The notes under the pieces are model-generated. The model saw nothing but the letters and a program-made list of their open reading frames with translations. It was not told where the DNA came from and searched no databases. A stretch of DNA of 64,000 nucleotides from Fulvia fulva. Its lineage: Eukaryota > Ascomycota > Dothideomycetes > Mycosphaerellales > Mycosphaerellaceae. A program made the translations under genes and the position numbers. Shown piece by piece: positions 46,498 through 64,000 of this stretch. The stretch is from assembly GCF_020509005.1 (NCBI RefSeq), contig NC_063013.1, forward strand, positions 4,588,001-4,652,000, in the 5' to 3' direction. Every line of letters starts with the position of its first letter. The first letter of the stretch is position 1.

Positions 46498-46893
46498 CTT
46501 GCAAGGGTCGCACGCGCTACAGAAGAATCGGGTTGAAGTTTGACGTAGCTGGGTTCACGAGCAGCCCTTGAGTTGGACAACACTTTAGCGTGCACCACAG
46601 CCTTAGGACACGTCACTTATCTCTACTGCAATATCAGCTAATCTATCCCGCCATTATAGGCGTTATCTAAGAGAGTTAGAATACCTTACTATCGCTAACT
46701 TTACCGTTAGTCTTACTGTCCTCTACGGTAGGCTATAGTAAGCTAACTTCCGCCCTATAGCTAGTATCTAATTTAGTAAAGTTACGGTAACCTACTTTTA
46801 GCCTTATTCTTACTAATTTACTAGCTTCCTTATTAATAGCTCTCTTATAAAGCCTAGTATATATACTAAGGTAGATATTACTAGCGCTTATTA

Positions 46894-46942
46894 CGATCTA
46901 AGCGTATATATAGGTAATAGCCTATTATTAAAACTTAAGGCT
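46894..46942. repeat. Extra partial arm of the foldback element
   Basis: These 49 bp (CGATCTAAGCGTATATATAG onward, to CTTAAGGC) match the outer part of the arms at 47,013-47,396, in the same orientation as the right arm. It is a third copy, next to the intact pair. Confidence 0.7.
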
Positions 46943-47012
46943 TTTACGTTATTAGTATAGAAAGTTATTATACGGGCTTATATAGGGTGTTTCAAAAGTA
47001 GACTATATATTA

Positions 47013-47396
47013 TATATCTATCTAGAATAGATAAGTATTACTCTTAAAGAGGCTATAGGTAACTAATTAGTTACCTAATTCTTAGCGTACGTAGCCTTAA
47101 GTTTTAATAATAGGCCATTACCTATATATACGCTTAGATCGCGATATACTCCCTTAGCTTATACGCTAGAGTAAATAAGCTAATCCTATATAATTACGTA
47201 TACCCTATTATAACTACCCCTCTATCTATAGTAGTAACTTTAGACCCTCGGTATTACTACTCTCGTAATCCGAGCTTATATATAGGTAATAGCCTATTAT
47301 TAAAACTTAAGGCTACGCACGCTAAGAATTAGGTAACTAATTAGTTACCTATAGCCTCTCTAAGAGTAATACTTATCTATTCTAGATAGATATATA
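47013..47396. mobile_element. Foldback/MITE-like element with ~130-bp inverted arms
   Basis: The left arm (about 47,013-47,150) and right arm (about 47,268-47,396) are near-perfect inverted repeats, with outer ends ATCTATCTAGAATAGATAAG and its complement. Each arm contains the perfect 18-bp palindrome GGTAACTAATTAGTTACC, at 47,058-47,075 and 47,332-47,349. The ~117-bp centre does not code. The few mismatches between arms (for example GGCC versus AGCC) are partly RIP-type. It looks like a non-autonomous DNA transposon; the parent family is unknown. Confidence 0.7.
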
Positions 47397-47398
47397 TA

Positions 47399-48531
47399 AC
47401 GTGCTTTACTACCGAGCGGGCTATACTACCGAGCGGGCTACTTTTGCTAAGAACTGTACTACTTCTACAGATATAGCTATATAACTACTATTATAGCGTA
47501 TATTGTCTTTAAACGAGGCCAAACTAACCTTAGCTATCTAGGCCACGAAACGCGACGCGATAATTACGAATCGACTTACTATAAAGGTATACGACGCGTC
47601 TCGAACTACACTAGGGTATCGATTGAATAGACAACCTCCTCGGGGTGACTACGAGCCTAGTTCGAAGAAGCTTATAGAGCTAGAAGAGAGGGTGATACTT
47701 AAGTATATACTCGAGCTAGATCTTAGAGGGTTCCCGCTATTAAAGGCTAGTATACGAGTAATAGCCGATTTATTACTATAAGAGAAGGGTCTTAAGCCCG
47801 CTAGTCTTAATTAGACAGACAGGTTTATTAGGCGGCATCGTGAGCTAAAGGTTCGTATAACACGTAGATACGATCGTTAGCGAGCCCTAATAGAAGATCT
47901 AGACGTTATCGAGAAGTAGTTCTTACTTATACGTAATATAAAGGAGAAGTATAGTATCCTTAACTAGGACACCTATAACTTCGACGAGATAGGGTTTATA
48001 ATAGGTGTTATTACGTCTTAGAGCGTCGTTACGGGTTTAGAAAGGCGTAGTAGAAAGAGGAAGGTCGTTTAATAGGGCAATAGAGAGGGAGTAGAGAGAT
48101 AGCGTATTAGATAGCTCTTATACGAAGCGAGATTAGTAAGCTACGTAAGTCTAACGAGGCCCTTATATAGCGAAAAGCACGAAAGCGCAAGTACATTCAG
48201 TCTAGAGGGTCTCTAACCTTCGATAAGGCGTCGCAATTAATACCTCTAGATAATACTAGGAGGTAGGAAGTAAGTAGAGAGTCGCTAGATAGTGTTCGGC
48301 TAGTACTAAGGCTACGACGCTATAAGCGATATAGCGAGTCGGGGCATAACGTACGTACCTATTAAGTAGACTTACTAGATAGCGAAGAATCTAAAGAGGA
48401 ATTGTCCTCCTAGTAACAATTCTATAGGATATCGTCGTGTTAAGATACCGTCGTAATTAAAGTAGAAGTAGTATAGTTCTTAGTAAAAGTGGCCCGCTCG
48501 GTAGTATAGCCCGCTCGGTAGTGAAGTACGT
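47399..48531 (+). mobile_element. RIP-degraded Fot1/pogo-type DNA transposon
   Basis: Terminal inverted repeats begin ACGTGCTTTACTACCGAGCG at the left and the complement of a near-identical sequence at the right, flanked by TA on both sides, the target expected for this superfamily. Each terminus contains two direct copies of ACTACCGAGCGGGCTA separated by a T or similar. Conceptual translation, read through RIP stops, gives KLIELEERVILKYILELD, then RFIRRHREL and YNFDEIGFIIGVIT, matching the pogo/Fot1 DDE transposase blocks. About 1.13 kb remain, shorter than a full Fot1. Numerous TAG/TAA codons show it is dead. Confidence 0.8.
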
Positions 48532-48537
48532 TATATA

Positions 48538-48542
48538 CTATA
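48538..48542. repeat. Target site duplication CTATA, left copy
   Basis: The five bases CTATA just before the 5' LTR recur just after the 3' LTR at 54,082-54,086, the 5-bp duplication expected from copia integrase. Confidence 0.85.
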
Positions 48543-48777
48543 TGTTGAGAACATACAGGCCGCAGGACAAGCATGTAGGTGTGGGTGTGTCATGTGATAG
48601 ATCACGTGACTAGGGTTTGCCAGCCCCTATAGGCTGGCAAACATCCGGACACCTAGCATCTACCTACACCAACACCGGCGATACTGTATGTAGATACACG
48701 CTATCCCATTGGGTCCTTCTTCGTCTTTGGTGTGATCCGCCGTCTTCCACTGCTGCGCAACTCGTACCTGTTTAACA
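48543..48777 (+). repeat. 5' LTR of the copia element
   Basis: 235 bp, TGTTGAGAAC ... CTGTTTAACA. It contains an internal inverted repeat TTTGCCAGCC/GGCTGGCAAA around CCCTATA, which could form a hairpin in the transcript, and a CACGTG box. It carries G at both positions where the 3' LTR carries A. Confidence 0.95.
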
Positions 48778-48789
48778 GGTTATGAGCCC
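48778..48789 (+). promoter_or_regulatory. Primer-binding site matching an initiator-tRNA-Met half
   Basis: GGTTATGAGCCC begins at the first base after the 5' LTR. It is complementary to the anticodon stem-loop GGGCUCAUAACC of eukaryotic initiator tRNA-Met rather than to a tRNA 3' CCA end. Drosophila copia primes from such a cleaved 5' half of initiator tRNA. The region up to 49,284 is the untranslated leader. Confidence 0.65.
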
Positions 48790-49284
48790 GGGTTAGCAAC
48801 TCGGTGTTTCACCCTCGACAAAGTCGTATTGGAGTTATTCCTCTTCAGAACAAAAGGAAGGCAGACTGGAGGCCGCACCCGCATTGCACAGGAAGCTACA
48901 GCCGCGCTGTAGGTGCATATAAGACGTGAAAGAGCCTAGTGAGGCACTGTCAGACTCCGAGTCAGGGAGCCTGTGCCAATACCTCAGACAAGTGGGCGAG
49001 CTTACTGAGAAGAGTCGCTCTCCGGACATCGCGTTCGCATCGACTAACTGTTCATTCTGAGAGAGCCGCAGTGTCTCAGAAACCCCCTCTGCTGAGAGAG
49101 TTACGCTACAGTGTCTCAGCACTAACACGATCCTTACCGACCGACTTTCCTCCTCTTCCCGGCGGATAGCCATCCTCTCCGCTATCAACCTCGCGTTCGG
49201 TTTATCCCATTTCGATCCGATCGCGTACGACCGAATACATCCTTTTACCTGAGGGCAGCCAACCTGTCCCTCAACTTACAAAAA

Positions 49285-52200
49285 ATGGAGAACGAGACTG
49301 GGTTCATAAGAAAGAGAGCAGCACCTCTTCTGACAAGAGAGAACCACGAAACATGGTTCAAGCTGATGAGAATACACCTGGTATCAAAGCAGGTTGACTG
49401 GGTCCTCGAAGACATCATCACGGACATTCCCGCTGCAACCCCATCTATAGCGACACCCTCTGCATCATCGGAGTCATCCCTTCCTTTGGATCAAGCGATA
49501 AGGAAGGCATCGTACAGACGGCACAATGCAACGGCCCTGTATGAGATGTACATCTGTCTGTCGACAGATGACCAAGAGATGACATACGAGATCCGGCATG
49601 CGAAGGAGTTGTGGGAATGGGCTGAAGCTAAATATAAGAGAAGACTTCTCGCTACTGGAAGAAGTTTGCTTCAGCAATACACCAATTTCGTGATGACAGA
49701 AGACCAGTCTATAGATGACGCCTGGCAGGAGCTTAGCTCAATTGCAAGGAGGGCTGTTTCAATCTCGCCTCAGTTCCAAGACATCAAGACTGAGGACAGA
49801 AAGATCCAGCAACTCTTAGCAGCTCTGCCAGACTCATTTGGCTCAATTCGCGATGCAATTGATGCCCAGGTGAATCTCTCACCACAAGACATTCTTGCAA
49901 TTCTTGGGGAGAAGCAAGAATCAATGATTCATCAAGGAACAGCCATGTTTGCTAAGAAGGGTTTCCAGGGCAAGCTCACGTGCCATCTCTGCGGTGGTGA
50001 CCATTTTATGAGCAAGTGCCCACACCTTTCTGCAGCTCAGCAGGCTGTTAGGAACAAGGACAAACTAGCTAGGGTTACCTACCCTGCTAAGAGACAACCG
50101 TCACCACCTCGTAGGAGGTCATCATCACCAAACCTTCGTGATGTCCTCAAGGTGATGACGGACCTTGCAAAGCAGATGAAGGAGAGCCGCAAGCCAAAGG
50201 CCTCCTCTAGTAAGCCTGCAAGGGCCCATGCGACCCAGGAAGACGCATCAGACCCTGAGATACCATCAGAAGATGATGATGTTGATGAGGTTGCCCATTC
50301 CACTGTGGAAGCCAAAGGCAAGTACCCCTCGTCCGAGTGGTTGCTTGACTCTTGTGCATCATCACATATGACTGACCAAGATTCACTATTCAGGACACTG
50401 AAGCCTCTTCAAAAGAGGAAGTGGATCAAGGTTGGGGGTGGCTATCTACAAGCTACACATATGGGAAGTGCAGTAATGGGTGGTCCTTCTGGAAAGCAAA
50501 TTGTCTTAGAAAATGTCCTGTTTGTTCCTGGCCTTGGAGTTAGTCTTGTTTCGTGGAATCAGTTCAGCCAACAGTTTGCTGTCCAACCACCCAGTTTCAC
50601 CCTAAAATCCTTGTCTGGTAAACCCGTTGTCCAGACCAAACTTCGAGGAGGAGTACCGTTTATCCACTCGATCTCGGAAATTCTTGAGCCACAGCATGCT
50701 GGCATACTCTCTCAAGAACGTGACGGTACCGCTATGGCTAACACTGAGTCCGAAGATCAGTGGGAGCTATGGCATAGAAGATGTGCACACCTTGGCAAGG
50801 GACTGCTAAGAAACCTGCATAGAGTCACTGACAAGAAAGATCCCATTCCTGTTCCTTCTGAACACCAGAATTGCAAGGTCTGCTGCCTTGCAAACATGAG
50901 GAAGTTCAAAGGACCTGCCACAGAGAGGAAAGGGGAGAGGCTGGCCCTCATCTCTATTGACATCTGTGGGCCTTTTCAGGGCGCAGTCTCTAGGCTAGGA
51001 TACAAATATTGGCTTGAGATTGTAGACAACTTCTCTAGGAAGAAGTGGGTAATCCCTTTGAAGGCCAGGAGCGACGCTCCTGCAGCCCTACGGGATTGGA
51101 AGGTCCAGGCAGAACGGCAGTCAAGGTGCTTTCTGTCTGCGATCCGCAGTGATGGTGCAAAGGAAATTCTCGCCTTGCTAAAAGAGTGGGAGAAGGAGTT
51201 TGGCACTCAGATGGACACAACTGATGCCTACAACTCTCTTCAAAATGGACCTGTGGAAAGGTCAATTCAAGCCTCTGAGAACACAGTCCGGGCTATGCTT
51301 GAAGACTCTGGCATGCCAGTTGAGTTCTGGCCAGAAGCTTTGCAAGCACAGACTGTGATCAGAAACAGACTGCCTAATGGTCCGATCATTGATGGTATTG
51401 CTCTTTCACCAGAAGAAGCCTTTACTGGCCAAGTACCGTCAGTCGACCATTTCCGCGTCTGGGGATGCAAAGCTGTGGTCTATGTAGACCCAAGAGCCCA
51501 ACCTCAAGGCTTGAGGAGAGACAAGTTGATGAACCGAGGAAAAGAAGCCGTGTTTGTGGGCTACTCAGAAAACACCACAAAACAATGGCTGTTCTGGGAT
51601 CCCGACATGAAAGCAATAAAAGCGCATAGTCACGTCGACTGGTTTGAGAATGAGAAGGGGGGAGATATGGATCTTGGTATCACCTTCACTAACCAGCCGA
51701 GTCGAGCGCCACAGCGCAATCCTGTTGGGAGGAAGCCCTTTGGGGCGAAATTTTCCGATAGGGGATTATCAGAGACACCGTTACGAAGGCCAGGAGAAAA
51801 TATTGAGGCGGTTTCAACACTGTCGAAGGCCGATAACGGTGGATCTATACAGAACCTACCCAAGTCATCAACACCACAGCAACCGCTGTTTGTGCAACTT
51901 CCCCCTCCCCCAAAGGACATTGGGGAATACCAGAAGTTTGGAGATCAGGGTACTCCAATGAAAGAAAAAGAAGATGTCGTTCAGTTCGACCCATCCGAAC
52001 ACCCAGCGCCACCTCAGGTTGCAGGCAACAAGAGGTCAAGGGGGGACGGAGATGATAACTCTGAAGAGCATGAGGCTAAACACCATAAGGCTCTTATCGC
52101 CCAGATGTTCCATCTAGACCCTACAATGAGCTGGGTAGAGGAGATTCTGAACGACGTGGAAGAACATGCATTTGCTGCTGTTGGGCAGGCCATAGCCTAT

Positions 52201-53811
52201 CAGCAGGAAGTGCCAATCCCAAAGTCCTATAAGGCAGCCGTAGGAGACCCCGAATGGGGACATATGTGGAGAGAGGCAATCGAGAACGAACTTATTGCCT
52301 TAGCAAGCAACAACACCTGGGAAGCAGTTGTACCGCCAAAGGGTGCGAATCTAATTACTTCTAGGTGGGTCTTTGATGTGAAAAGAATGATTAGTGGAGC
52401 CATTGAGAAGTTCAAGGCAAGACTAGTTGCAAGAGGGTTTTCACAGAAATATGGGGTTGACTTCGAAGAGACCTTTGCACCTACTGTTAGACATGATACT
52501 CTCCGAGTATTCATGGCAGTAGTATGTGAGAGAGATCTCGAGATGCACCTAGTGGATGTGAATAATGCTTTTACCCAAAGCAGCCTTCTTGAAGACATCT
52601 ATATGATCCCACCCCCAGGAGTTGAAGCACCTCCAAACATGGTGTTCAAGGTCCTACGAAGTCTTTATGGGCTTAAGCAAGCAGCTAGAGACTGGAACAA
52701 GCTCTGTGTTGCGAAGCTAGAGAAGATTGGATTTACCCAGTCCCAGGTAGATCCATGCCTACTTATCCATACGGATAGAGACCTTATGGTCCTTACCCAT
52801 GTGGATGACATACCCATTGCAGCTCCGAAGCTGTCAGATGTTCAGTGGTTTAAGGCTGAGCTTGGAAAAGTGTTTAAGATTAAAGATCTTGGTGAACCTA
52901 CGAAGATCCTTGGAATGAGGATTACAAGAGACAGGTCCCAAGGCACTTTGAAGCTTGATCAAGGACACTATGTCCACGCTAACTTAGCCAAGATGAACAT
53001 GGCTAGAGAGAAGGCTACGCCAACCCACTCACCTATGGAGAGCTACGAGCATTTAGTGCCTACGGCACCTATGGATGAGAGGTGCAACAAACAGGATTAC
53101 CAGAGCCACAATGGTACCTGGATGTGGCCAATGACAATGACAAGGCCAGACTTAGCATTCCCCCTTGGAAGAATTAGCTCATTTGTTGCTGATCCCTCGC
53201 AGCAGCATATGAAGGCTTTGAAGAAGCTCTCCCGATACCTGCGGTCGTACCCAGACCTAGGTCTTATGTATAGAAAGGGAGGGGGCAATCTCCAGGGATA
53301 CTCGGACTCTGACTACGCTATGGACAAAGTGGATAGAGTCTCAATTCTGGGATACGTGTGGTTCCTTTGTGGATCACCTGTGTCCTGGATGAGTAGGAAG
53401 CAGAAGTCTGTTGCAACATCAACAATGGAAGCTGAGTTCATGGCTATGAACGCAGCCGCAAAGCAGTCACAATTTCTTGCTGCTGTCCTCAGGGAAATGG
53501 GGTGCCCAGAACTGGTAGGAAAGAGCTCTTTCCAGCCGAGTGTAAGGGCAAGCAAGGGCACTGTTGACGAGCTAAGGCCAGTCAAGCTCATGGGTGACAA
53601 CCAAGCCGCTTTGACACTTGTCAAAGATGCCCATGTGCATGAAAGGTCAAAGCATATTGATGTTGCATATAACTATGTCAGACATCTCTGGTGGCAGAAG
53701 AAGATTGCAGTGGACTACTGCCATACAAAGGACATGGCTGCTGATGGGTTAACAAAGCCCCTCAATGGCCAGCAGTTCCAAAACTTTGTAAGGCAGCTCC
53801 AGCTTGCGTAA
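49285..53811 (+). CDS. Copia Gag-Pol polyprotein
   Basis: One frame of 1,508 residues starts MENETGFIRKRAAPL. Gag occupies about residues 1-300, with a CCHC zinc knuckle near residue 233 (CHLCGGDHFMSKC). The aspartic protease region carries LLDSCASSHM near residue 355, a DSC variant of the usual DSG. Integrase has LWHRRCAHLG and CKVCCLANM in its zinc-binding part, and a D,D,E core at about residues 558, 622 and 657 (SIDICGPF, IRSDGAKE, NGPVERS). Reverse transcriptase runs from about residue 1010 (SRWVFDVKR) with the catalytic motif LTHVDDIP near 1172. RNase H follows (GYSDSDYAMD, STMEAEFMAM, GDNQAALTL), ending near ADGLTKPL. The domain order protease-integrase-RT-RNase H defines copia. No stops or frameshifts. 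Confidence 0.95.
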   Translation: MENETGFIRKRAAPLLTRENHETWFKLMRIHLVSKQVDWVLEDIITDIPAATPSIATPSASSESSLPLDQAIRKASYRRHNATALYEMYICLSTDDQEMTYEIRHAKELWEWAEAKYKRRLLATGRSLLQQYTNFVMTEDQSIDDAWQELSSIARRAVSISPQFQDIKTEDRKIQQLLAALPDSFGSIRDAIDAQVNLSPQDILAILGEKQESMIHQGTAMFAKKGFQGKLTCHLCGGDHFMSKCPHLSAAQQAVRNKDKLARVTYPAKRQPSPPRRRSSSPNLRDVLKVMTDLAKQMKESRKPKASSSKPARAHATQEDASDPEIPSEDDDVDEVAHSTVEAKGKYPSSEWLLDSCASSHMTDQDSLFRTLKPLQKRKWIKVGGGYLQATHMGSAVMGGPSGKQIVLENVLFVPGLGVSLVSWNQFSQQFAVQPPSFTLKSLSGKPVVQTKLRGGVPFIHSISEILEPQHAGILSQERDGTAMANTESEDQWELWHRRCAHLGKGLLRNLHRVTDKKDPIPVPSEHQNCKVCCLANMRKFKGPATERKGERLALISIDICGPFQGAVSRLGYKYWLEIVDNFSRKKWVIPLKARSDAPAALRDWKVQAERQSRCFLSAIRSDGAKEILALLKEWEKEFGTQMDTTDAYNSLQNGPVERSIQASENTVRAMLEDSGMPVEFWPEALQAQTVIRNRLPNGPIIDGIALSPEEAFTGQVPSVDHFRVWGCKAVVYVDPRAQPQGLRRDKLMNRGKEAVFVGYSENTTKQWLFWDPDMKAIKAHSHVDWFENEKGGDMDLGITFTNQPSRAPQRNPVGRKPFGAKFSDRGLSETPLRRPGENIEAVSTLSKADNGGSIQNLPKSSTPQQPLFVQLPPPPKDIGEYQKFGDQGTPMKEKEDVVQFDPSEHPAPPQVAGNKRSRGDGDDNSEEHEAKHHKALIAQMFHLDPTMSWVEEILNDVEEHAFAAVGQAIAYQQEVPIPKSYKAAVGDPEWGHMWREAIENELIALASNNTWEAVVPPKGANLITSRWVFDVKRMISGAIEKFKARLVARGFSQKYGVDFEETFAPTVRHDTLRVFMAVVCERDLEMHLVDVNNAFTQSSLLEDIYMIPPPGVEAPPNMVFKVLRSLYGLKQAARDWNKLCVAKLEKIGFTQSQVDPCLLIHTDRDLMVLTHVDDIPIAAPKLSDVQWFKAELGKVFKIKDLGEPTKILGMRITRDRSQGTLKLDQGHYVHANLAKMNMAREKATPTHSPMESYEHLVPTAPMDERCNKQDYQSHNGTWMWPMTMTRPDLAFPLGRISSFVADPSQQHMKALKKLSRYLRSYPDLGLMYRKGGGNLQGYSDSDYAMDKVDRVSILGYVWFLCGSPVSWMSRKQKSVATSTMEAEFMAMNAAAKQSQFLAAVLREMGCPELVGKSSFQPSVRASKGTVDELRPVKLMGDNQAALTLVKDAHVHERSKHIDVAYNYVRHLWWQKKIAVDYCHTKDMAADGLTKPLNGQQFQNFVRQLQLA

Positions 53812-53846
53812 AGGGATTGTAGGAGACCATGTGGCCTGAGTGGGAG

Positions 53847-54081
53847 TGTTGAGAACATACAGGCCGCAGGACAAGCATGTAGGTGTGGGTGTGTCATGTG
53901 ATAGATCACGTGACTAGGGTTTGCCAGCCCCTATAGGCTGGCAAACATCCGGACACCTAGCATCTACCTACACCAACACCGGCGATACTGTATGTAGATA
54001 CACGCTATCCCATTGGGTCCTTCTTCGTCTTTAGTGTGATCCGCCGTCTTCCACTACTGCGCAACTCGTACCTGTTTAACA
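53847..54081 (+). repeat. 3' LTR of the copia element
   Basis: 235 bp, identical to the 5' LTR except for two G-to-A differences near its end (TTTAGTG for TTTGGTG, CTACTG for CTGCTG). Both are TpG-to-TpA. A short purine-rich run (GAGTGGGAG) lies directly before it and may be a weak polypurine tract. Confidence 0.95.
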
Positions 54082-54086
54082 CTATA
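54082..54086. repeat. Target site duplication CTATA, right copy
   Basis: Matches the five bases before the 5' LTR. Removing the element rejoins RIP-degraded TA-rich sequence. Confidence 0.85.
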
Positions 54087-54214
54087 TATAATTTAGAATC
54101 ACTACCTTTATAACTAATTAAGACATTCCTATAAAGATCTAAGCCCGAGTTATAATAACGTATAGCGGTTCCTAATACTACGTCGTATAAAGGCTAGATA
54201 CCGTAAACTTAAAA

Positions 54215-54236
54215 TATAATAATAATAATAATAATT
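54215..54236. repeat. (TAA)n microsatellite
   Basis: About six or seven TAA/AAT units in RIP-degraded sequence. It may be the eroded A-rich tail of a non-LTR element, but this is uncertain. Confidence 0.6.
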
Positions 54237-54775
54237 TATAGCGCCTATCTAGCTCCTAAATAGTCTACGAGGCTAGGGGCTATTAAGGAAGAGAGAGGGG
54301 AAAACCGTCGTACGGAGTAAACCTCTCTTCGGGGGTTAGTAAGTTCTCTCTATTACTTATCGGTCGATCCGTTATACTAGAAGCGGTAAGATCTTAAGCG
54401 GTTAGCCGCCCCGGAGTACTAATCTACCTAGTACTAAGAGAAAGTATTAGTAGCTAACCGACTTACCTACCGTTAGCCGGTCGCCCGTTAGGCGGAACTT
54501 AAGTCGCTAAACCGCTAACTCGTTAGTTACTCTAGGCTAGTCCTCCCTTTATAGCTACTATCGCGGTCGGGGTCGCCGCGGGCTATAGTCTACTCTCTCG
54601 CGGGGTCGTTAGTACTATTGTCGGCGCCCTACTAAATTAGTAGGCCGGACGCCCTCGTAGGCTTCCTAGAGTTCTATTACGAGACTATAGTACGAGAATA
54701 TAAGGGTATAGTATTAACGAAGTCGATAGCTAAAGAGAGAAGAGAGTCTAAGGACGAGGCCTATACTTAAAGACC

Positions 54776-54885
54776 GAGGTGTCGGACGTCGGCATCGGGC
54801 CGAGCTTAGTCATCCGGGTCACGTGACCCCTTGGTCACGTGATCAGATTTGAATCCTTCACTTACGGAGCGGCCGTAACAAGTTC
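54776..54885. other. Patch that escaped RIP, with two TCACGTGA boxes
   Basis: About 110 bp keep normal CA and TG dinucleotides inside otherwise saturated RIP sequence. It contains GGTCACGTGACC and, 5 bp later, GGTCACGTGATC, close palindromes around CACGTG. It lies beside the minus-strand LINE relic. Origin is unknown: a short later insertion or a single-copy spacer between repeats. Confidence 0.5.
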
Positions 54886-54889
54886 TTCC

Positions 54890-57531
54890 TCCTAGGCTAC
54901 CTCTCCCGCCCTTACTACTATCTCGTTCGCTATTTAGAACTATTAGAGTAGGCTAGTCCGTATCACTATCCTCGCCGCCGCTCGTATCCCGTACGCTATA
55001 TTTATTATATACTAGAAGTTTTTTATCCCGGTTTCGAGGCGTATTACCTACCGGGCCTCTACGAGGCGCGGGTAGAACAGTACGATATATTTTAGCGTTT
55101 AGATACGTCCGTACTTATATAGATTACTATTAATACCTAGTACCTTACGGCGGTATAGGTAGTCCTTAAAGCCGATATATTCTAAGCGGAGTAGTATCCC
55201 GACTATAGCCTACGGGCGGGTAAGGGCTCGGAAGAGTATTACTTAATTTCGGCTAACGAGTCCTATCTTTGCTACTTCCTCGTCCTCCCTACGATACGTT
55301 CGTCGCCGTAGTAGTTACCCGTTTAGGTACCTTTCGCCTTTTTCCTAGCGCTAATTCTAGATCCCCTATATATATCCGCGAACCGCGTCTACTATAGCTC
55401 TCCGATTTTTACGTCCCTATCCCGCTCCTATTACGGGTATACTACTAGCTAGGGCCTATACCTAGAACTTGATTCTAGAGGTCTATTACGCTTCGGGCCG
55501 CTACTATAGCTATAGCTATAGTCGTGCCCTCCCTCTACGCGCTACCGGTCAAAGGCGTATTATAATTACCTAGTACGCCGCGCGGATATCGCTCTCTACC
55601 TTACTATTAGCCGTCTTTAGCGTATAGCTTATAGTAAGCTATTAGAGGTAGAGGTCTAGTAGCGCGATCTACGTATCCGCCTCTAGGATCTACGTCGGTA
55701 TAGTACGGTATACCCCTATTACTTTACGGAGGTATTCGGTCTATACGTTTTAGATCTATTTTAGCTAGCTAGTCGCGTAGGATAGATACTAGACTAGCGC
55801 CCTAAAGGTAATTACTAGCCGGACAATAGAGCTATATAGCTAGCGTACCTTTATAAAGGCTATATCCTACGTAGAGGCCGCGAGACGTATAACTAAGGCC
55901 TTATTCTAGTCTCTACGCTACTAGAGTTACTTTAGATAGGCGTACTACCGGAGCTATATATCTACTTAGAATCCTAGGACCTAGATAGATAGCTACGGAG
56001 TAATCTAGCTTCCGCCGGTTCCGGCCTCGATAGTAGCCTAGAGGTTATACTTTTTCGGGGTCCTCGTAAGGTAGATTATCTAGTACTTTTCGGGTACGAA
56101 GACCGCCCCGTTCCTCTCCGCCTAGTCGTTATATATCTTAAGCGCTACTTCGAGTTAGCGATAGTTAGTTTCGGTTAAGTCGCTATACGTTAGGATATTC
56201 GTATCGTCGATAAAGCCTATATAGGAGTTAGTACCGCCGGCGCTACCTCTAAGTAGCGGTAGGAGTATAGAGGCGAGGAAGAGGAAGAGGATCGGGGAGA
56301 GCGAAGAGCCCTACGGGATCCCCGTTTCCGTAGGCCGTATATAGGGTTTACGCTACTCCCTAAGGATAAGCCTCGTAGATTGGTTAGTAAGGAAGGACTA
56401 GACGAACGGGACGAGCTAACTAGGTATACCTTTCGCTCGGAGGTTATTAAGTAGTCTAGTATAGGAGATCTTATCGAACGCCTCTAAGATATCGAGTAAT
56501 AGTAGGGTAGTAACCTATTATTAGCGTATTACCTATATTATATAGACCTACTCCGTTACGAGTTCTAGGGCCGTCGTAGTAGACCGCTCTAGCCGGGCTC
56601 CTATCTACTCGGCCGGGAGGAGCTAGTACTCCTCGGCTAGCTTAGAGATACGGTCGGCCGTAATACGCTCTAGCGCCTTCCCGATTATACTTAGTAGAGC
56701 TATCGGGCGGTAGGCCTTTCCGACGTCGTATCTAGCCTTACCCTCCTTACGGAGGACGACTATACTCGAGTACCGGAAAGGGGTCGGTATATAGGACTAC
56801 CGGAGGTATATCGTAAATAGCCCCGCGAGGTATAGGGCGAGCGTCTAGCGGTAGTATTTAAGGAATCGGTTCGGGATCTTATCTAGTCTAAGGGCCTTAG
56901 CTAGTAGCGCTACTTTTAGTACTATTAGTACCTCCGCCTCTATTACCTCTTAGCTAGTCTCGAGCTCTATTAGGTATACGAAGCCCTCGATATCGTCGAG
57001 TCGAGCCGTAACCGGAGGAGAGAAGAACGCTTCTAGTAATATATCGGCTCTACCTTACTAGGTTTCCTAGAGGATTACTTATCTATTATAGATAGGCGAG
57101 AATTATAGTAGTAGCGGCGGCGTCCCCGTCTTTCTCGTACGCGCCTACTTAGCGAGCTTCTAGACTTTACTCTACTCTCCTATAGCTTCTCTAACGGCGT
57201 CGCGCTACGCGATATTACTCTAGCGCCGGATAATCCTACCCTTCTCGTTATATAACCGGTAGTATTAGGCGTATATAGCGTCCTATTTCGTCTCCTTCTA
57301 CTAGCGTCTCGCCGCTACCGTAGAGTAGACTACGTCTACGTATTCCTATAACTAGGCTAGCGACGCGTACTTAGAGGGTTAGGCTTAGGGAATCCTATCC
57401 CGGATTACTCCCGCGATATACTACTATAGGTTCTCTACTACCGTGTCGTATTCCGCCTCTAAGTAGAGGGGTACCGGGGGTAGGAGGGCCGTTATTCGTT
57501 CCTTTAGGGGCTTATTAACCTCCTTCTAGTC
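54890..57531 (-). mobile_element. RIP-degraded LINE (Tad/I-like non-LTR retrotransposon)
   Basis: On the minus strand, translation through RIP stops gives reverse transcriptase blocks: LDKIPNRFLKYYR, SSIVVLRKEGKARYDVGKAY, RPIALLSIIGKALERI, LLLLDILEAFDKI, GSSLSPILFLFLASILL and GFIDDTNIL (the F-x-D-D catalytic motif), roughly between 56,950 and 56,150. The sequence toward 54,900 is probably its 3' part. The 5' part (endonuclease) is missing or unrecognisable, and the element stops at the LTR relic at 57,532. It belongs to a different family from the LINE at 60.6-64 kb. Confidence 0.7.
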
Positions 57532-57732
57532 TATTAAGAACATCTAGGCCGTAGGTCAAGTATAAGGGTATAGGTATATTATATAACTAGATTACGTAAC
57601 TAGGGTTTACTAGCCTATAGGCTAGTAAACATCCGGACACCTAGTATCTACCTATACTAATACTAGCGATACTATATATAGATATACGCTATTCTATTAC
57701 GTCCTTCTTCGTCTTTCGTATAATCCGCCGTC
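57532..57732 (+). repeat. RIP-degraded LTR of the same copia family
   Basis: About 200 bp align along their length with the first ~200 bp of the intact copia LTR. The differences are mostly C-to-T in CA or G-to-A in TG: TGTTGAGAACAT becomes TATTAAGAACAT, GGTTTGCCAGCC becomes GGTTTACTAGCC, and CACGTGACTAGGG becomes TACGTAACTAGGG. The last ~34 bp are missing and no internal region follows, so it is a truncated solo LTR. Confidence 0.9.
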
Positions 57733-57840
57733 ACTAATATCTATTCCTATTATTACGCGTTAAGACGACGACGGCGCGACCGAGGAAGTTACCTATTCTA
57801 CTACCGAAGGTACCTATCTTCGAGGCTATATCCTACTATT

Positions 57841-58068
57841 AGGGTGGACAGCTTGAAGTTTTCTTCACCCTGTTTCTTCAGCTCTAAACGCCGCGGAGGT
57901 GCCTAGCTATATTAGGCAGCTCCTAGGTAATAGTAGCCTAGGCTACGGTACGGACGGCGCCTACGGCTCTATAGGCGAAGCTCCCCTAAGACAACTAGTA
58001 GCAACTTATAGAGGACGTAAAAAGTATAGAAACTAACGATCAGCTCCTATACCGGTCTCTATAGGTAG
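57841..58068 (-). repeat. Direct repeat copy 1, possible LTR
   Basis: About 225 bp, shared with the copy at 60,126-60,593 (GCTCTAAACGCCGCGGAGGT, CTACGGCTCTATAGGCGAAG and ACAACTAGTAGCAACTTATA are landmarks). This copy is less mutated: it keeps ACAGCTTGAAG and CCCTGTTTCTTCAGC where copy 2 has ATAGCTTAAAG and CCCTATTTCTTTAGC. Confidence 0.7.
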
Positions 58069-60125
58069 GGATCTTAGGTCTAACTAAATCCTAGGCGTTA
58101 CCTAGCGAGGCTAGTAAGTCGTATATAAACTTAAGTACTACCTTCTTATTACGGAAGACTATATAGTCGATAATAGTCTCTAACTCAGAGAAGAACTTCT
58201 TAAGGGAGGGTCTAGATAGCTTACTATTAATAGTACCGATAAACTTCTTAGGCTTATCTATACTACGCTAAGTCTTAAAGGGCTAGCTAAGGTCCGGATT
58301 ATACTTAACTAGAGACTCGAAGTCGTAGACTAGCTTCTTCTTAGAAGAGCGGCGATAAGTACGAGTATTACTATCCGACTCCGAGGCCTCCTCTAACTCG
58401 TTAGATAATAGATCGGAGTCGTTACTATTATCTAGCTTACGTATAGACTTCTTAGCTTTCTTTCTAGTAGTACGGCGAGCTACCTTATCCTCGTACTTAT
58501 TACCGCGGTCCTTATTACTAGCTCTACTAGCTCTACTATTATCATTCTTGTCCTTAGATAGGGTCCGGCCGTTTTATAGGGCACGGCGCTATAATATAGC
58601 GCGATATAGTAAGGATCGTACTCGAGAGCGGCCTCGGCAATCGTCGAGTTACTTCTTAAGGTTATCTACCTAAGTTTACTACGACTTATTAAGCTACTCG
58701 ATATCGCTCTAATAGGTCTAGGCTTCTGTCTTATATATATTAAGGAAGACGAGGAGGTTTTTATCCGTTAATTAGGTTTCCTACCTATATAAATAGACCT
58801 AAATAGCGAGAGACCTATATAGGCTATAGGGTACTAAAACAGGCGAATAAATAATCTATCTATCTATATATATTAAGGTCAGATTCGAGGGCCTTGATCT
58901 TCGAGTCGTTATTAGACAACTACTAAAGTGCCTCCTTCGCTTACTTCTTTAGGGTGTCGTTCTTTATAGTAAGTAACCTAATCTCGGCGGTCATTACTAT
59001 ACTTAAGGATACTCTAGGTTAGGCCTTTAGGTTATCGAGTTCCTACTAGACCTAAGTAAGCTATTACTTAGCCTAATCTATTTCTCCTCGTACCGTACCT
59101 AGGTCCTTCTAGAAAGTGTCGCAGTACTTTATAGCATCCTCCTTCTATATCTTCTATATATTGCGATTCTTAACTAGTATATCGTACTCGTTACGTATCT
59201 ACTAATTGTGACTCTTCTATCTCCTAAGCTCTTACCCTACTTTATCTAATTACTCGTAGAGTATAGTCGCTATTTATACTATATTCCTATACTCTTACTC
59301 GGTACGTCGTAGGATAAAGTAGATAGCCGCGGCCCTCTTAGGCTCCTATACGAGCTTAACGAGTCAATCGGTATCGAGTTATAGGAGGTCGTTAACGGGG
59401 ATTTAGAGGGTCTTCGCGACTTGTTATTATGTCTTACCTTCCTCTCCTTTGCCTTCTTTAGTAGCGCCGTCGTCGTCGTAGTTAACTACCGCCGTAGCTA
59501 TACTATCGACATTCTAGATCTCGTTATCGGAAAGAAGGTCGTATAGGTTAAACTTAGGCGGTAGTAAAGTAACTAGTCGCTATAAGCTCTCGAGTTTATA
59601 CTATAAGGCGTTGTCGGTAGTTTACTACTACTACTATATCTATCCTAGAGTCTATATATTATATATAGACTCGCGCTATACTACTAGTCGTATAGCTAGT
59701 AGTAAGCCTCGTTATCCTTAAGGGCGTACTACGTTAGGTACTACTTAGCCTAAGATAGTAGTCTCTTATACCGAGTCGTACGTTTTCTCTAACGTACGCT
59801 ATAATGTCATATTATGGTTATTAATAATCTATATACTTATAGATCCCGTCGTAGCTCTTCTACGGATATAGAGACCTAGCTAAGTATAGCGGTTTATAGC
59901 CGTATTAATATAGAGTAGCTAGGTACGTAGGAACGAGGAGCGCGAGGTACGCCGAGGCTATATATAAGCCGATTATATATTACTAGAAAGTAATCAAGAC
60001 TTCGAATAGATTTTCGCCTTATATCGCTAAACACGACATATTCGAAAGCTCTTATCAAGGCTATTCTAACGATCTATAAAGTAGGCCACTGCCCCTAGAA
60101 TTAGGGGAGTTCTACCTTATTTAAT
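58069..60125 (-). mobile_element. Gag-like relic between direct repeats
   Basis: About 2.06 kb, RIP-degraded. On the minus strand, reading through stops gives charged, Ser/Lys/Arg-rich segments and then IDKPKKFIGTINSKLSRPS followed by LKKFFSELETIIDYIV, resembling the gag of a Gypsy-type retroelement. No reverse transcriptase motif was found. With repeats on both sides, a non-autonomous or internally deleted LTR element is the best guess. Confidence 0.45.
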
Positions 60126-60593
60126 TTAGATAGCTTAAAGTTCTCTTCACCCTATTTCTTTAGCTCTAAACGCCGCGGAGGTGCCTAGCTACATTAGGTA
60201 ACTCCTAGGCAATAGTAGCCTAGGCTACGGTACTACCGGCGCCTACGGCTCTATAGGCGAAGCTCCCCTAAGACAACTAGTAGTAACTTATAGAGGACGT
60301 AAAAAGTATAGAAACTATTAAATAGGTACGGGTAGATAGTAGCGGAGTAGAGTAAGAGATCAATCTTTAACCAACTAATAGCACGAGTATATAGCAATAT
60401 ATTAGGAACCAATATATTGATTATATTAGATGTCTATCTAAGCTAAAGGGGAGAGAAGGTATCTCCCTATAAGCTAAGTCATCGTAGATACCTTAGGCTA
60501 CTAGATTACTTCCTAATTATTGACTCCCTTTAAGATACTATATCTTGATAGAAACTAACGATTAGCTCCTATACCGGTCTCTATAGGTAATAA
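60126..60593 (-). repeat. Direct repeat copy 2, split by a nested insertion
   Basis: Same sequence as copy 1 but more heavily RIP-mutated and interrupted at 60,316-60,550. The sequence before the gap ends GTATAGAAAC and resumes GAAACTAACGATTAG, matching copy 1 when the insert and one GAAAC are removed. Confidence 0.7.
60316..60550. mobile_element. Probable nested solo LTR, flanked by GAAAC
   Basis: A 235-bp insert splits direct repeat copy 2 and is flanked on both sides by the 5-bp duplication GAAAC. It begins TATTAAATAGG and ends TCTTGATA, consistent with TG...CA ends turned to TA...TA by RIP. The sequence does not match the copia LTR despite equal length, so it is a second LTR family. Confidence 0.65.
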
Positions 60594-60599
60594 TTACTT

Positions 60600-63500
60600 A
60601 GCTACGTACGGCGCTTATACTGTCGTATTATAGAGGGTAATAAGAAATAAGGACGACGTCTTAGGCGATTAATAAGGCTACCCGGAATCAATACCCCTAT
60701 AGCTAGGTATCGGTCGCGGTATCGATACTAGGCCCCCGCCTAACGTACGATATAGTTACGATCCGTATTATAGTAAAGGAAGACTAGGCCGAAGCTACGA
60801 AGCTATCGAATAAGGAGCTCGCCTAGCGAATTAATTAACTAGGGGTAGTTGTAGTGAACTAATAGTCTAACGGTACTCTATAGATCTATACTAGCTCTAC
60901 TACTACTAGGAGGCACCTAGAGGTATAGCTATAGTAGGCATCTAAGGTTGCGGTATTAGCGAAGGTCTTAACGAAGCAATTTACGATCCTAGTCTACGAT
61001 ATACCTAAGGAGTTCGACCTAACTAACTAAGGTCACCTACGGGCTCTCTTAGAGGACAACCCGGTCACTCTTAACTCTCTAATCTAGAGGGCGACTTAGC
61101 TCTATAGGAAATGGCTAGAAGGTAAGAAGGCCTCGGCGCTAATAGTATAGCTATAAGACGCGAAAGCGGCGGATCTAGCGATAGAACAAGGCCTGATCTA
61201 GTAATATAGCCTTAAGATAGTAGAAAAGTACTCCTTACTCTTTCGTGTCCTCTAATACTTCAAATACTAATAGTATAGACACCAAACCTATACGTATATA
61301 AACAAGTAGGCCTGCTCGAACTATATAGGAGACTATATATCTAGGGACTATATATTAGCTACGAGACGTTACGCGAACTGTCCGGGGCACTACCTATCGT
61401 ATAGCGCGGAATGCCTATAGCGGAAACTAGCGAAAAACAAGGCAATCACAAACAGAACCGTCGCCCTAAGATTCTACGGCGACTATAAGGCTAGCCTATA
61501 CCGGAACTAGTTAGCGGCGGTCGGGTATAAGCGCCCTAGGGCCGAGAACGATATAAAGGATACGTAACCTAGGGCGTACGGGAGGCTACGTGCCCTACTA
61601 GCTACGGCGAGGGAGTCTAACTAGGCCCGGCTCCCCTTTAGTATATAGCCGATAGGCGTAGACTAGGACGTATAAGGCAGTAGGACATAGGACGCTATAG
61701 AGGAAATGATTATCGATGCCGATAACTAGCCTCGACACGCTTAGTATCATCTAGTATAACGTTAACTATAGCAAGGATATAGTCTAGAACTATTTCCTAT
61801 ACGAGGCGGACCCGTACGTCTACTACGTCCTAGTAATCTAGGAGCTATAGATTAACCCGTACTATAAGAGACTAACGACCTACAAGTTACTAGGCTATAC
61901 GATATACCTACGAGGCGACGGTAGACCCCGTACGTACTTCTATATTAGTAAGGACATACTAGAATCCGACTAGGAGGTAGTATACTACGTAGACGAAGAA
62001 GGCGGGGGCGATATTACCTCCCTCTACGTAGGTAGTACCTAGATATACAACCTATATATATAACCGCTAGCCTCGAGGTCTAGCCGCGACCTTAGGGTCT
62101 ATAGACACCTAGATAGTACGCTTAAGAGACAAGGGTACCACATCGTAGTAGGAGACTTTAATATATACTACCCTTTCTAGGAAAGCCTTATATAGCCGTA
62201 CCCTATAGCCAACGAAGTAATCGACTTAATAGCGAGTAACGTAATTACCCTTAATACCCTAAAGTACCTAGGTACCTAGAAGAGAGGGGGACTCTAAGGC
62301 ACGATCGACCTCTCCTAGATCTTAGATAGCTACTACTATATAGTAACCTACTATAGGATCGAATATAAACTCGAGGCGTCGTTAGACTATATACTAGTTA
62401 GGACCTCTATTACGATATAGATATAACGTATACTAGCGAGAATCCCTAAGCTAAACTAGGGAAAGGCCTACTAGGCTAATATCTAGGCGTACCTCGATAA
62501 CTCCGAGAGGCTAGTCTAGATCGCGTAGTAGTAATACAATAGTAAAGACGAGATAGACGAGGCAGTCTAAGGGTTAATAGACGAAATAAGAAAAGCGACC
62601 TTACTTTACGTTCCGCTTACCTAACTAACGATATAGTCTAAACTATACTAGACGCCGAAGTACACTACGGTAGTAAGAGAAGTAAGGAGAGCCCGCCGGG
62701 TATAGACGAGCAGCTATAGCGAGGAGGCCTAAAACGTATATAGGGAGGCATACTAATAGAAGAAAGCTATAATACGGAGGGAGAAAGTAGTCGGCTAGAG
62801 GGCTATAGTAGAAGAAATCGCTAGCAAGCTAGCGAGGATATAGAAGCTAGCGAAATGGGCCCGATAGGACCCTATATAGGGCCCCTCCTTCTCTATCCTA
62901 GCGCTATAATCGCCTAGTAGTCCGGTTAGCGACCCCGAGGCTAAGGCGCGTCTACTAGCTAGCAAGTTCTTCCCGCCCCTAGTCGAGGCTAATCTAAGCG
63001 ACATAAACAGCTCTACTCCCCTAGCCCCTAGTATCGCGGTCCGATAGGAGGTGTCCGAGGGAGAAGTTGCCGCTATACTTAGGAAGTTACCGGCGAAGAA
63101 AGCCCCGGGGCCGGATAGGATCCCAAACGAGCTACTAAAGAAGTGTAGAGATCAACTAGCCCTAGTAGTTATAGCGATCTTTAAAGCCTGCCTATAGACC
63201 GGATACTACCCGATAGTATTTAAACAATCGACGATAGTGGTCCTACGTAAGCCGTAAAAGGAAGACTATACGTAGGTAAAGTCGTACCGCCTAATTACGC
63301 TCCTTAATACTCTTAGGAAGGCGCTTAAGAAGCTAGTTATAACGAGACTCTCCGAGGCGGTAGAGAAATACTCCCTACTCCTAGATACCTAGATAGGTAC
63401 GCGCCTATAGCGATCGACGCTATCCGCGATAGAACTTATTACCTCTTAGGTAAAGGCTATCTAGTATAAGAATAGGGACAAGGTAGCTTCCTTGCTTAGC

Positions 63501-64000
63501 CTAGACATATTAGGAGCCTTCGACTACGTATTATACCCGCGGCTACTCTATATCCTAAGGTCGAAAGGACTCCCTAAGTGGCTTATTAACTTCGTACGGT
63601 CCTACCTCCAAAACCGTAGCACGTCGATCTTAGTCGGCTAGTATAGAAGCCTATTTTAAGTAGTCTATACTAAAATCCCGTAAGGCTTAACGCTAGCACC
63701 TATTCTGTTCCTCTTCTTTATAGCGATGCTACTCCTAGCCCTAGAATCCTAGAACACCGCTACGAGCGGCTTTATAGACGATATAAATATCCTAGCGTAG
63801 TCTTTCTCGACTAAGGAGAACTATAGGCTACTAGAAGAGAAGCACAAGATCTACGAGGACTAGGCCTAGAGGTACGGGGCTCGGTTTGCCCTAGAAAAGT
63901 ACAATCTAATACACTTTACGCGCCGGCTACGGTTCTATAATATGTAAGCTTCTATCTAGATATAGGGGTATACGACTAACCCGGTAAATTAGCTTAGGAT
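60600..64000 (+). mobile_element. RIP-degraded LINE, continues beyond window
   Basis: Plus-strand translation through RIP stops shows a gag-type CCHC region near 61,310-61,430 (YANCPGHYLSYSAEC). An endonuclease/exonuclease/phosphatase block around 61,760-62,440 includes HIVVGDFNIYYPF. Reverse transcriptase starts near 63,060: KAPGPDRIPNELLKKC, then SLDILGAFDYVL and GFIDDINILA. This is the gag, endonuclease, RT order of Tad/I-clade fungal LINEs. The exact 5' end is unclear and the 3' end lies outside the window. Confidence 0.75.

Follow-up and report, generated by a model that had tools for sequence, protein, structure and literature searches.

The stretch of Fulvia fulva (Cladosporium fulvum) contig NC_063013.1 analysed here (64,000 nucleotides, positions 4,588,001 to 4,652,000; hereafter the window) carries at positions 48543-54081 what its sequence identifies as an autonomous Ty1/copia long terminal repeat (LTR) retrotransposon. 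A search of the Race 5 genome (67,169,167 b in 14 contigs) revealed that this element belongs to a recent burst of many copies into DNA degraded by repeat-induced point mutation (RIP). The new point of the analysis is that CpA-type changes are concentrated at the outer 3′ tips of the young copies. We consider it fairly probable that the burst entered the RIPped DNA of a mainly asexual fungus, that the bodies of the copies were spared by RIP, and that a CpA-directed process borne by the flanks erodes their tips.

The family proved to be large. A 2.46-kb query gave at least 40 full-length matches at 99-100% in the genome, and the 30 b with which the LTR begins were found with up to 3 mismatches at 354 places, both LTRs of a copy being counted. 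The junction of LTR and primer-binding site matched at 554 places, sister types included. A 21-base primer-site pattern with at most 1 mismatch matched at 132 places; among the matches listed, all but one carried the element's own 20-mer, the mismatch being the last base of the pattern. There were 83 exact 5′ LTR edges not preceded by G, a condition that leaves out inner LTR starts. These copy counts rule out a single-copy survivor, which had been one of the origins offered in the original prediction. From the 83 edges, 20 copies were fetched whole, 60 at their 3′ end only and 3 not at all. The copies read whole comprised 4 with a single LTR and 16 with two LTRs, and the 1,508-residue frame was kept in 15 of these 16, the remaining one (L015) being RIPped. 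Target-site duplications (TSDs) matched exactly in 13 of the 16, with one CA>TA difference in L016 and no match in L015 and L026. The 15 intact copies differed from one another by 3 to 61 bases (median 19), and they scored 0.73-0.76 and 1.37-1.39 on the two RIP measures by which the window element, itself unRIPped, scored 0.75 and 1.38, next to strongly RIPped flanks. So many near-identical copies imply transposition, and the family is probably transposition-active. The very recent insertion of an intact, probably active element that had been predicted is supported by these copies, by LTRs 99% identical and by the open frame. Traces of recombination were also observed: L018 has a recombinant 3′ LTR whose extra stretch resembles the U5 of L095, L102, L104 and L112, and the flanks of L026 are unmatched as after recombination between copies. 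In L080 (C10:732725-733169) a primer site directly follows the LTR, as in a tandem pair, with C10:730656 and C10:735958 lying 5.3 kb apart.

The mutation gradient is visible in LTR pairs. The two LTRs were not identical in 12 intact copies out of 15 and, L018 aside, 22 of 25 such differences were CA>TA or TG>TA and fell within the final 49 b of the 3′ LTR. A larger sample of 58 outer 3′ LTRs was drawn from the 16 two-LTR copies and the 60 fetched 3′ ends, leaving aside L015 (RIPped), L018, L080 (tandem), L077 (half), L079 (cut by the fetch) and 13 loci without an LTR at the expected place. Per site and copy, CA/TG>TA changes amounted to 76/488 (15.6%) in the last 55 b, 20/870 at 56-160 b from the outer end and 0/983 at 161-233 b, the inner end of the same LTR. 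The middle bin partly reflects inherited changes, for example at site 94. Of the 58 copies, 33 were changed at one or more sites of this 55-b tip, and other differences in that interval numbered 5, polymorphic site 187 being excluded. At the nine corresponding sites of the inner 5′ LTR, 1 of 126 was changed, in L016, where the 3′ LTR has it too. In the bodies, CA>TA changes private to one copy numbered 19 among some 11,655 site-copies (about 0.16%), or 27 CA>TA alleles when shared ones are included, and the CpA changes throughout the repeat that characterize RIP were not found in them. The tip changes are not present in the 5′ LTR belonging to the same copy, which dates them to the time after insertion. 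LTR elements, in their standard life cycle, do not pass the outer U5 on to new copies. The edge changes affected both strands (55 G>A and 21 C>T), which rules out APOBEC-like editing of one strand.

RIPped DNA adjoined all 58 sampled insertions, with a chance figure of 2.6e-24 given the 39.2% of the C. fulvum genome reported as RIPped (PMC9453070). In the 140 b downstream, the CA+TG share was 0-0.31 in all 58, a level found in 2 of 321 windows of gene-rich DNA (45 kb). This uniform placement could result from target choice or from selection against insertions elsewhere. A literature search on edge-limited RIP or methylation spreading, judged by titles and the openings of abstracts among the papers listed, gave nothing on point, which is not proof of absence. 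Neither the edge-limited mutation nor the non-autonomous derivative described below figured in the original prediction.

The burst overlies an older stratum. When RIP changes were allowed at six CA/TG sites of the edge pattern, the 5′ edges not preceded by G rose from 83 to 323, 240 being found only through RIP-type changes; among the 100 edges listed of the 323, 23 were unchanged, 7 had one change, 9 had two and 61 had three or more. The excess of RIP-degenerate over exact edges points to an old RIPped stratum beside a young one. Counting copies together with their RIP state, a check suggested along with the original prediction, returned many intact copies as well as these 240 altered edges. 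Moreover, the intactness of the window element is not special in this genome. Among the best 150 of 4,292 RVT_1 candidates, all 150 had no stop in the matched stretch and many lay in frames of 1,179-1,479 residues. The best 150 of 1,254 RVT_2 candidates included 37 with frames of 1,519-1,571 codons, assigned to this family by place and profile range, 40 representing a 1,601-residue frame of another copia family, and 28 with stops, 26 of which ranked highest and came from other copia groups; both sets being the best-scoring ones, the share of intact copies is not derivable from them. Members of those other groups, such as C6:3519908 and C8:3734806, had the top RVT_2 scores despite stops, mostly TAG. 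The genome paper gives 3 Mb of repeats under 1% divergence (PMC9453070) and the five-isolate paper reports transposable element (TE) insertion polymorphisms, both of which agree with recent activity. The coexistence of heavy RIP and low TE divergence was called contradictory in the 2022 genome paper (PMC9453070), and two strata, one old and heavily RIPped and the other young and untouched, would help to resolve this contradiction.

In the favoured explanation, older copies of the family would have been heavily RIPped before the recent burst. Premeiotic, repeat-directed RIP has not reached the young bodies since then, for which rare sex, as proposed for C. fulvum by the genome papers, may be responsible: RIP would have had little chance to act, which is more likely than the loss of a RIP gene. 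A CpA process changes the tips of the copies, over tens of bases where they meet the RIPped flank, mainly at the 3′ end. This process would be carried by the chromatin of the flank and would need no homology search, since a homology-directed process should hit the bodies, which are the best repeated, and hardly does so. A DIM-2-like gene (L113) was found that encodes BAH and methylase domains. The stretch read, its last 1,003 codons, contains no stop, and the best solved match is 9bap (E 1e-151), which we take to be Neurospora DIM-2. Two further cytosine methyltransferase genes, whose motifs and size suggest a RID-like and a DNMT5-like enzyme, also lack stops in their matched frames. With all three genes present, the loss of RIP activity predicted as one origin of the intact copy finds no backing in gene loss. 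The most likely agent would be a DIM-2-dependent mitotic CpA mutator, favoured here by analogy with Zymoseptoria tritici, in which functional Dim2 is reported to cause CA>TA mutations in mitosis, with more than 95% of mutations in methylated regions (PMC8016269). If the erosion is mitotic, LTR pairs would naturally record the mutations that repeat defence causes in the absence of sex, a system in which the tip of the 3′ LTR is exposed and the same bases in the 5′ LTR serve as a built-in control.

Several observations weigh against this explanation. Among the central-body singletons of C>T type, 14 of 22 were CA>TA, a weak CpA bias. The edge changes did not rise with the private body changes (rho -0.13, 14 copies), nor with flank RIP strength (rho -0.04, within little range). 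According to the five-isolate paper, nearly all predicted TEs show RIP footprints, a statement that the counts obtained here qualify. Finally, changes are far less common at the 5′ outer edge, an asymmetry that would not be expected from simple spreading. The 58 copies had been chosen by an exact 5′ edge, so a separate sample of 53 exact primer-site rows on C1-C4 was used for this end. In 25 of them the LTR start was exact and correctly spaced; 23 of the remaining 28 were read, of which 20 had a second LTR type and 3 (L096, L101 and L108) the type of the window element with a changed edge. These three look like an older sublineage, and the spacing to the 3′ end suggests that the 5 unread rows have the second LTR type. 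Taking these 3 together with the 25 exact starts, changed edges were 3/28 at the 5′ end versus 32/58 at the 3′ end (p = 6e-5). The pentamer cgCag lies 21 b inside the 5′ end and recurs on the opposite strand 22 b inside the 3′ end, and sequence context alone therefore does not explain the asymmetry. As a tentative proposal, a homology-free mitotic CpA mutator of heterochromatin may enter new insertions from the 3′ outer end, its limit possibly being set by the element's transcription unit, with the promoter end protected and the U5 past the transcript end eroded.

Among the alternatives, the one that survives best, though we consider it unlikely, is that meiotic RIP acting on the old repeats at the flanks spills over into young insertions for a few tens of bases, in a partial cycle that misses the bodies. 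It would fit the RIP leakage reported for the C. fulvum genome (PMC9453070), and the edge signature is of the same CpA type and on both strands. Nevertheless, the bodies exist as dozens of near-identical copies, which a cycle hitting the flanks should hit as well, whereas the inner ends of the same 3′ LTRs are unchanged throughout and 15 of 16 frames are open; the flanks, moreover, are already nearly spent of CpA. It is improbable that RIP is genetically dead in the lineage and that the edge changes are relics: the many open frames among the best RVT_1 and RVT_2 candidates would be expected, but the three methyltransferase genes carry no stops where matched and the 3′ edge changes postdate insertion. 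It was also considered, as a very improbable case, that the bodies were mutated too and then cleaned by gene conversion among copies, with the tips out of reach. The recombinant 3′ LTR of L018 and the unmatched flanks of L026 speak for exchange between copies, yet sublineage differences persist, the drop from 15.6% to 0.16% demands almost perfect conversion, and the 5′ tips are nearly clean. A polishing artefact, in which short reads unique only near the flanks left true body changes overwritten, is barely credible: the assembly was built from PacBio continuous long reads and polished with Illumina data, but Pilon reportedly made 692 and then 4 changes genome-wide, the effect is one-sided, and the family's RIP-changed edges were assembled as such. 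An assembly artefact as the source of the intact copy, which had been raised with the original prediction, is unlikely in view of these Pilon counts and of the many loci with matching TSDs.

With regard to the insertion site, the window element lies between a RIPped left flank of about 2 kb (46500-48537, its outer limit being approximate and chosen by the authors) and a RIPped right flank of 9.9 kb (54087-64000), both with high TpA/ApT and low CpA+TpG. The predicted saturation of the surroundings by RIP holds for these flanks and extends over about 12 kb plus the element. The last 300 b of the left flank (48243-48542) belong to an old repeat present at 38 other scored places at 93-98%, showing that copies may remain similar despite RIP. 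No full empty site was found for the copy in the window, the old repeat ending near the insertion; C2:5380881-5381339 resembles both sides of the insertion, with a gap between them. Elsewhere in the window an RRP36 protein is encoded, whose nearest named homologue is that of Dothistroma septosporum, at 79% identity.

The anatomy of the element agrees with the prediction of a complete copia element, whose limits were exact. The LTRs, of 235 b each with TG...CA ends (48543-48777 and 53847-54081, + strand), are flanked by the 5-b TSD CTATA (48538-48542 and 54082-54086) and contain, in their upstream half, an imperfect palindrome of 28 b (48615-48642 and 53919-53946). The element had been described as unmutated, which is not entirely accurate: the 3′ LTR departs from the 5′ LTR by two TG>TA changes, at 54033 (48 b inside the outer end, LTR position 187) and at 54056 (25 b inside it, position 210). 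The presumed primer-binding site GGTTATGAGCCCGGGTT (48778-48794) adjoins the 5′ LTR; this predicted part is present as a conserved LTR/leader junction, but no matching tRNA was found for it, nor did a search for an initiator-tRNA half as primer give a match. It opens the untranslated leader (48778-49284), whose start is common to four loci (L029-L032) at 93-97%. The purine-rich tract GTGGCCTGAGTGGGAG (53831-53846) precedes the 3′ LTR, and all 44 fetched 3′ ends with a readable LTR start had GTGGGAG before it.

The Gag-Pol frame (49285-53811, + strand) runs from ATG to stop over its 1,508 residues with no internal stop. Pfam matches comprised a copia-type gag (PF14223; 49498-49920), a Pol beta-barrel domain (PF22936; 50338-50571) with the protease-like motif DSCASSHM, an integrase region (50728-51657) with GAG-pre-integrase, rve core and SH3-like domain, and the reverse transcriptase RVT_2 (PF07727; 52309-53019) with the motif HVDD. 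The GAG-pre-integrase and rve matches lay below Pfam's own cut-off, and the region matched solved integrases weakly. With this integrase core below the cut-off, the order of protease-like domain, integrase and RVT_2 is that of Ty1/copia. A zinc knuckle, CHLCGGDHFMSKC (CX2CX3HX4C; 49981-50019), was read from the sequence, and its spacing is identical in several homologues. An RNase H region of approximate limits (53290-53780) was assigned by eye without a Pfam match, on motifs that we presume to be those of copia RNase H. YVDD is the usual motif at the position where the element has HVDD. HVDD also occurs in homologues P0001, P0002, P0005 and P0006, a DSCASSHM-type motif in 5 of the first 6 homologues, and among the intact copies DSC is present in 15 of 15 and HVDD in 14 of 15. 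The recurrence of both motifs in close homologues marks them as features of the lineage and not as damage; catalytic decay is ruled out, as copies bearing them have multiplied. The frame is poor in CpG (observed/expected 0.42, versus 0.96 in 45 kb of gene-rich DNA). CpG is also low in the RIPped relative L015 (28.3 per kb versus 70.9), and the RIPped right flank is rich in it (1.36), so RIP does not explain the CpG-poor frame; an origin in another host, by horizontal transfer, is possible.

A second U3 was found in 17 of 20 further primer-site loci fetched, with a U5 nearly that of the window family in 13 and more different in L095, L102, L104 and L112. Within this second LTR type, a 4.7-kb derivative with a broken pol has spread (L029, L031 and L032, on C1 and C2) and is not RIPped. 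L029 and L031, of 4,729 b each, are 99.7% identical without gaps, and L032 is the same minus 323 b; no + strand frame (from ATG, at least 120 residues) exceeds 226 residues in any of them. TSDs match in L029 and L032 and not in L031. The three loci share their defect, and they share U5 and primer site with the autonomous element, as expected of a non-autonomous derivative. That several copies carry identical defects implies that they were mobilised in trans, for which the intact family would be the simplest source. At offsets of about 265-505 in L031, the second-type element directly follows the RIPped LTR end of an old window-family copy, which suggests their relative age.

In the context of known systems, the element shares with the Ty1/copia elements (Pseudoviridae) of Dothideomycetes the same domain set, the single Gag-Pol frame and the DSC and HVDD motifs. 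Its product is 84% identical to the closest homologue, P0001, and among named homologues a polyprotein of Cercospora kikuchii (P0006) comes nearest, with 75% identity over residues 990-1440. A 5.6-kb Ty1/Copia element tied to the loss of Avr9 (PMC10823647) comes from the same species and size class and has direct repeats of 240 b; it may belong to the same family as the window element. The Dim2-dependent mutation of Z. tritici (PMC8016269) has in common with the present case the CpA preference and the repeat DNA, a DIM-2-like gene being present here, but it was demonstrated in mutation-accumulation lines, whereas here the process is inferred from a gradient at element ends. Similarly, RIP leakage (PMC9453070) involves CpA changes beyond the targeted repeat, but it was reported for single-copy DNA, whereas the changes described here start from old repeats, enter young ones present in many copies and die out over about 160 b.

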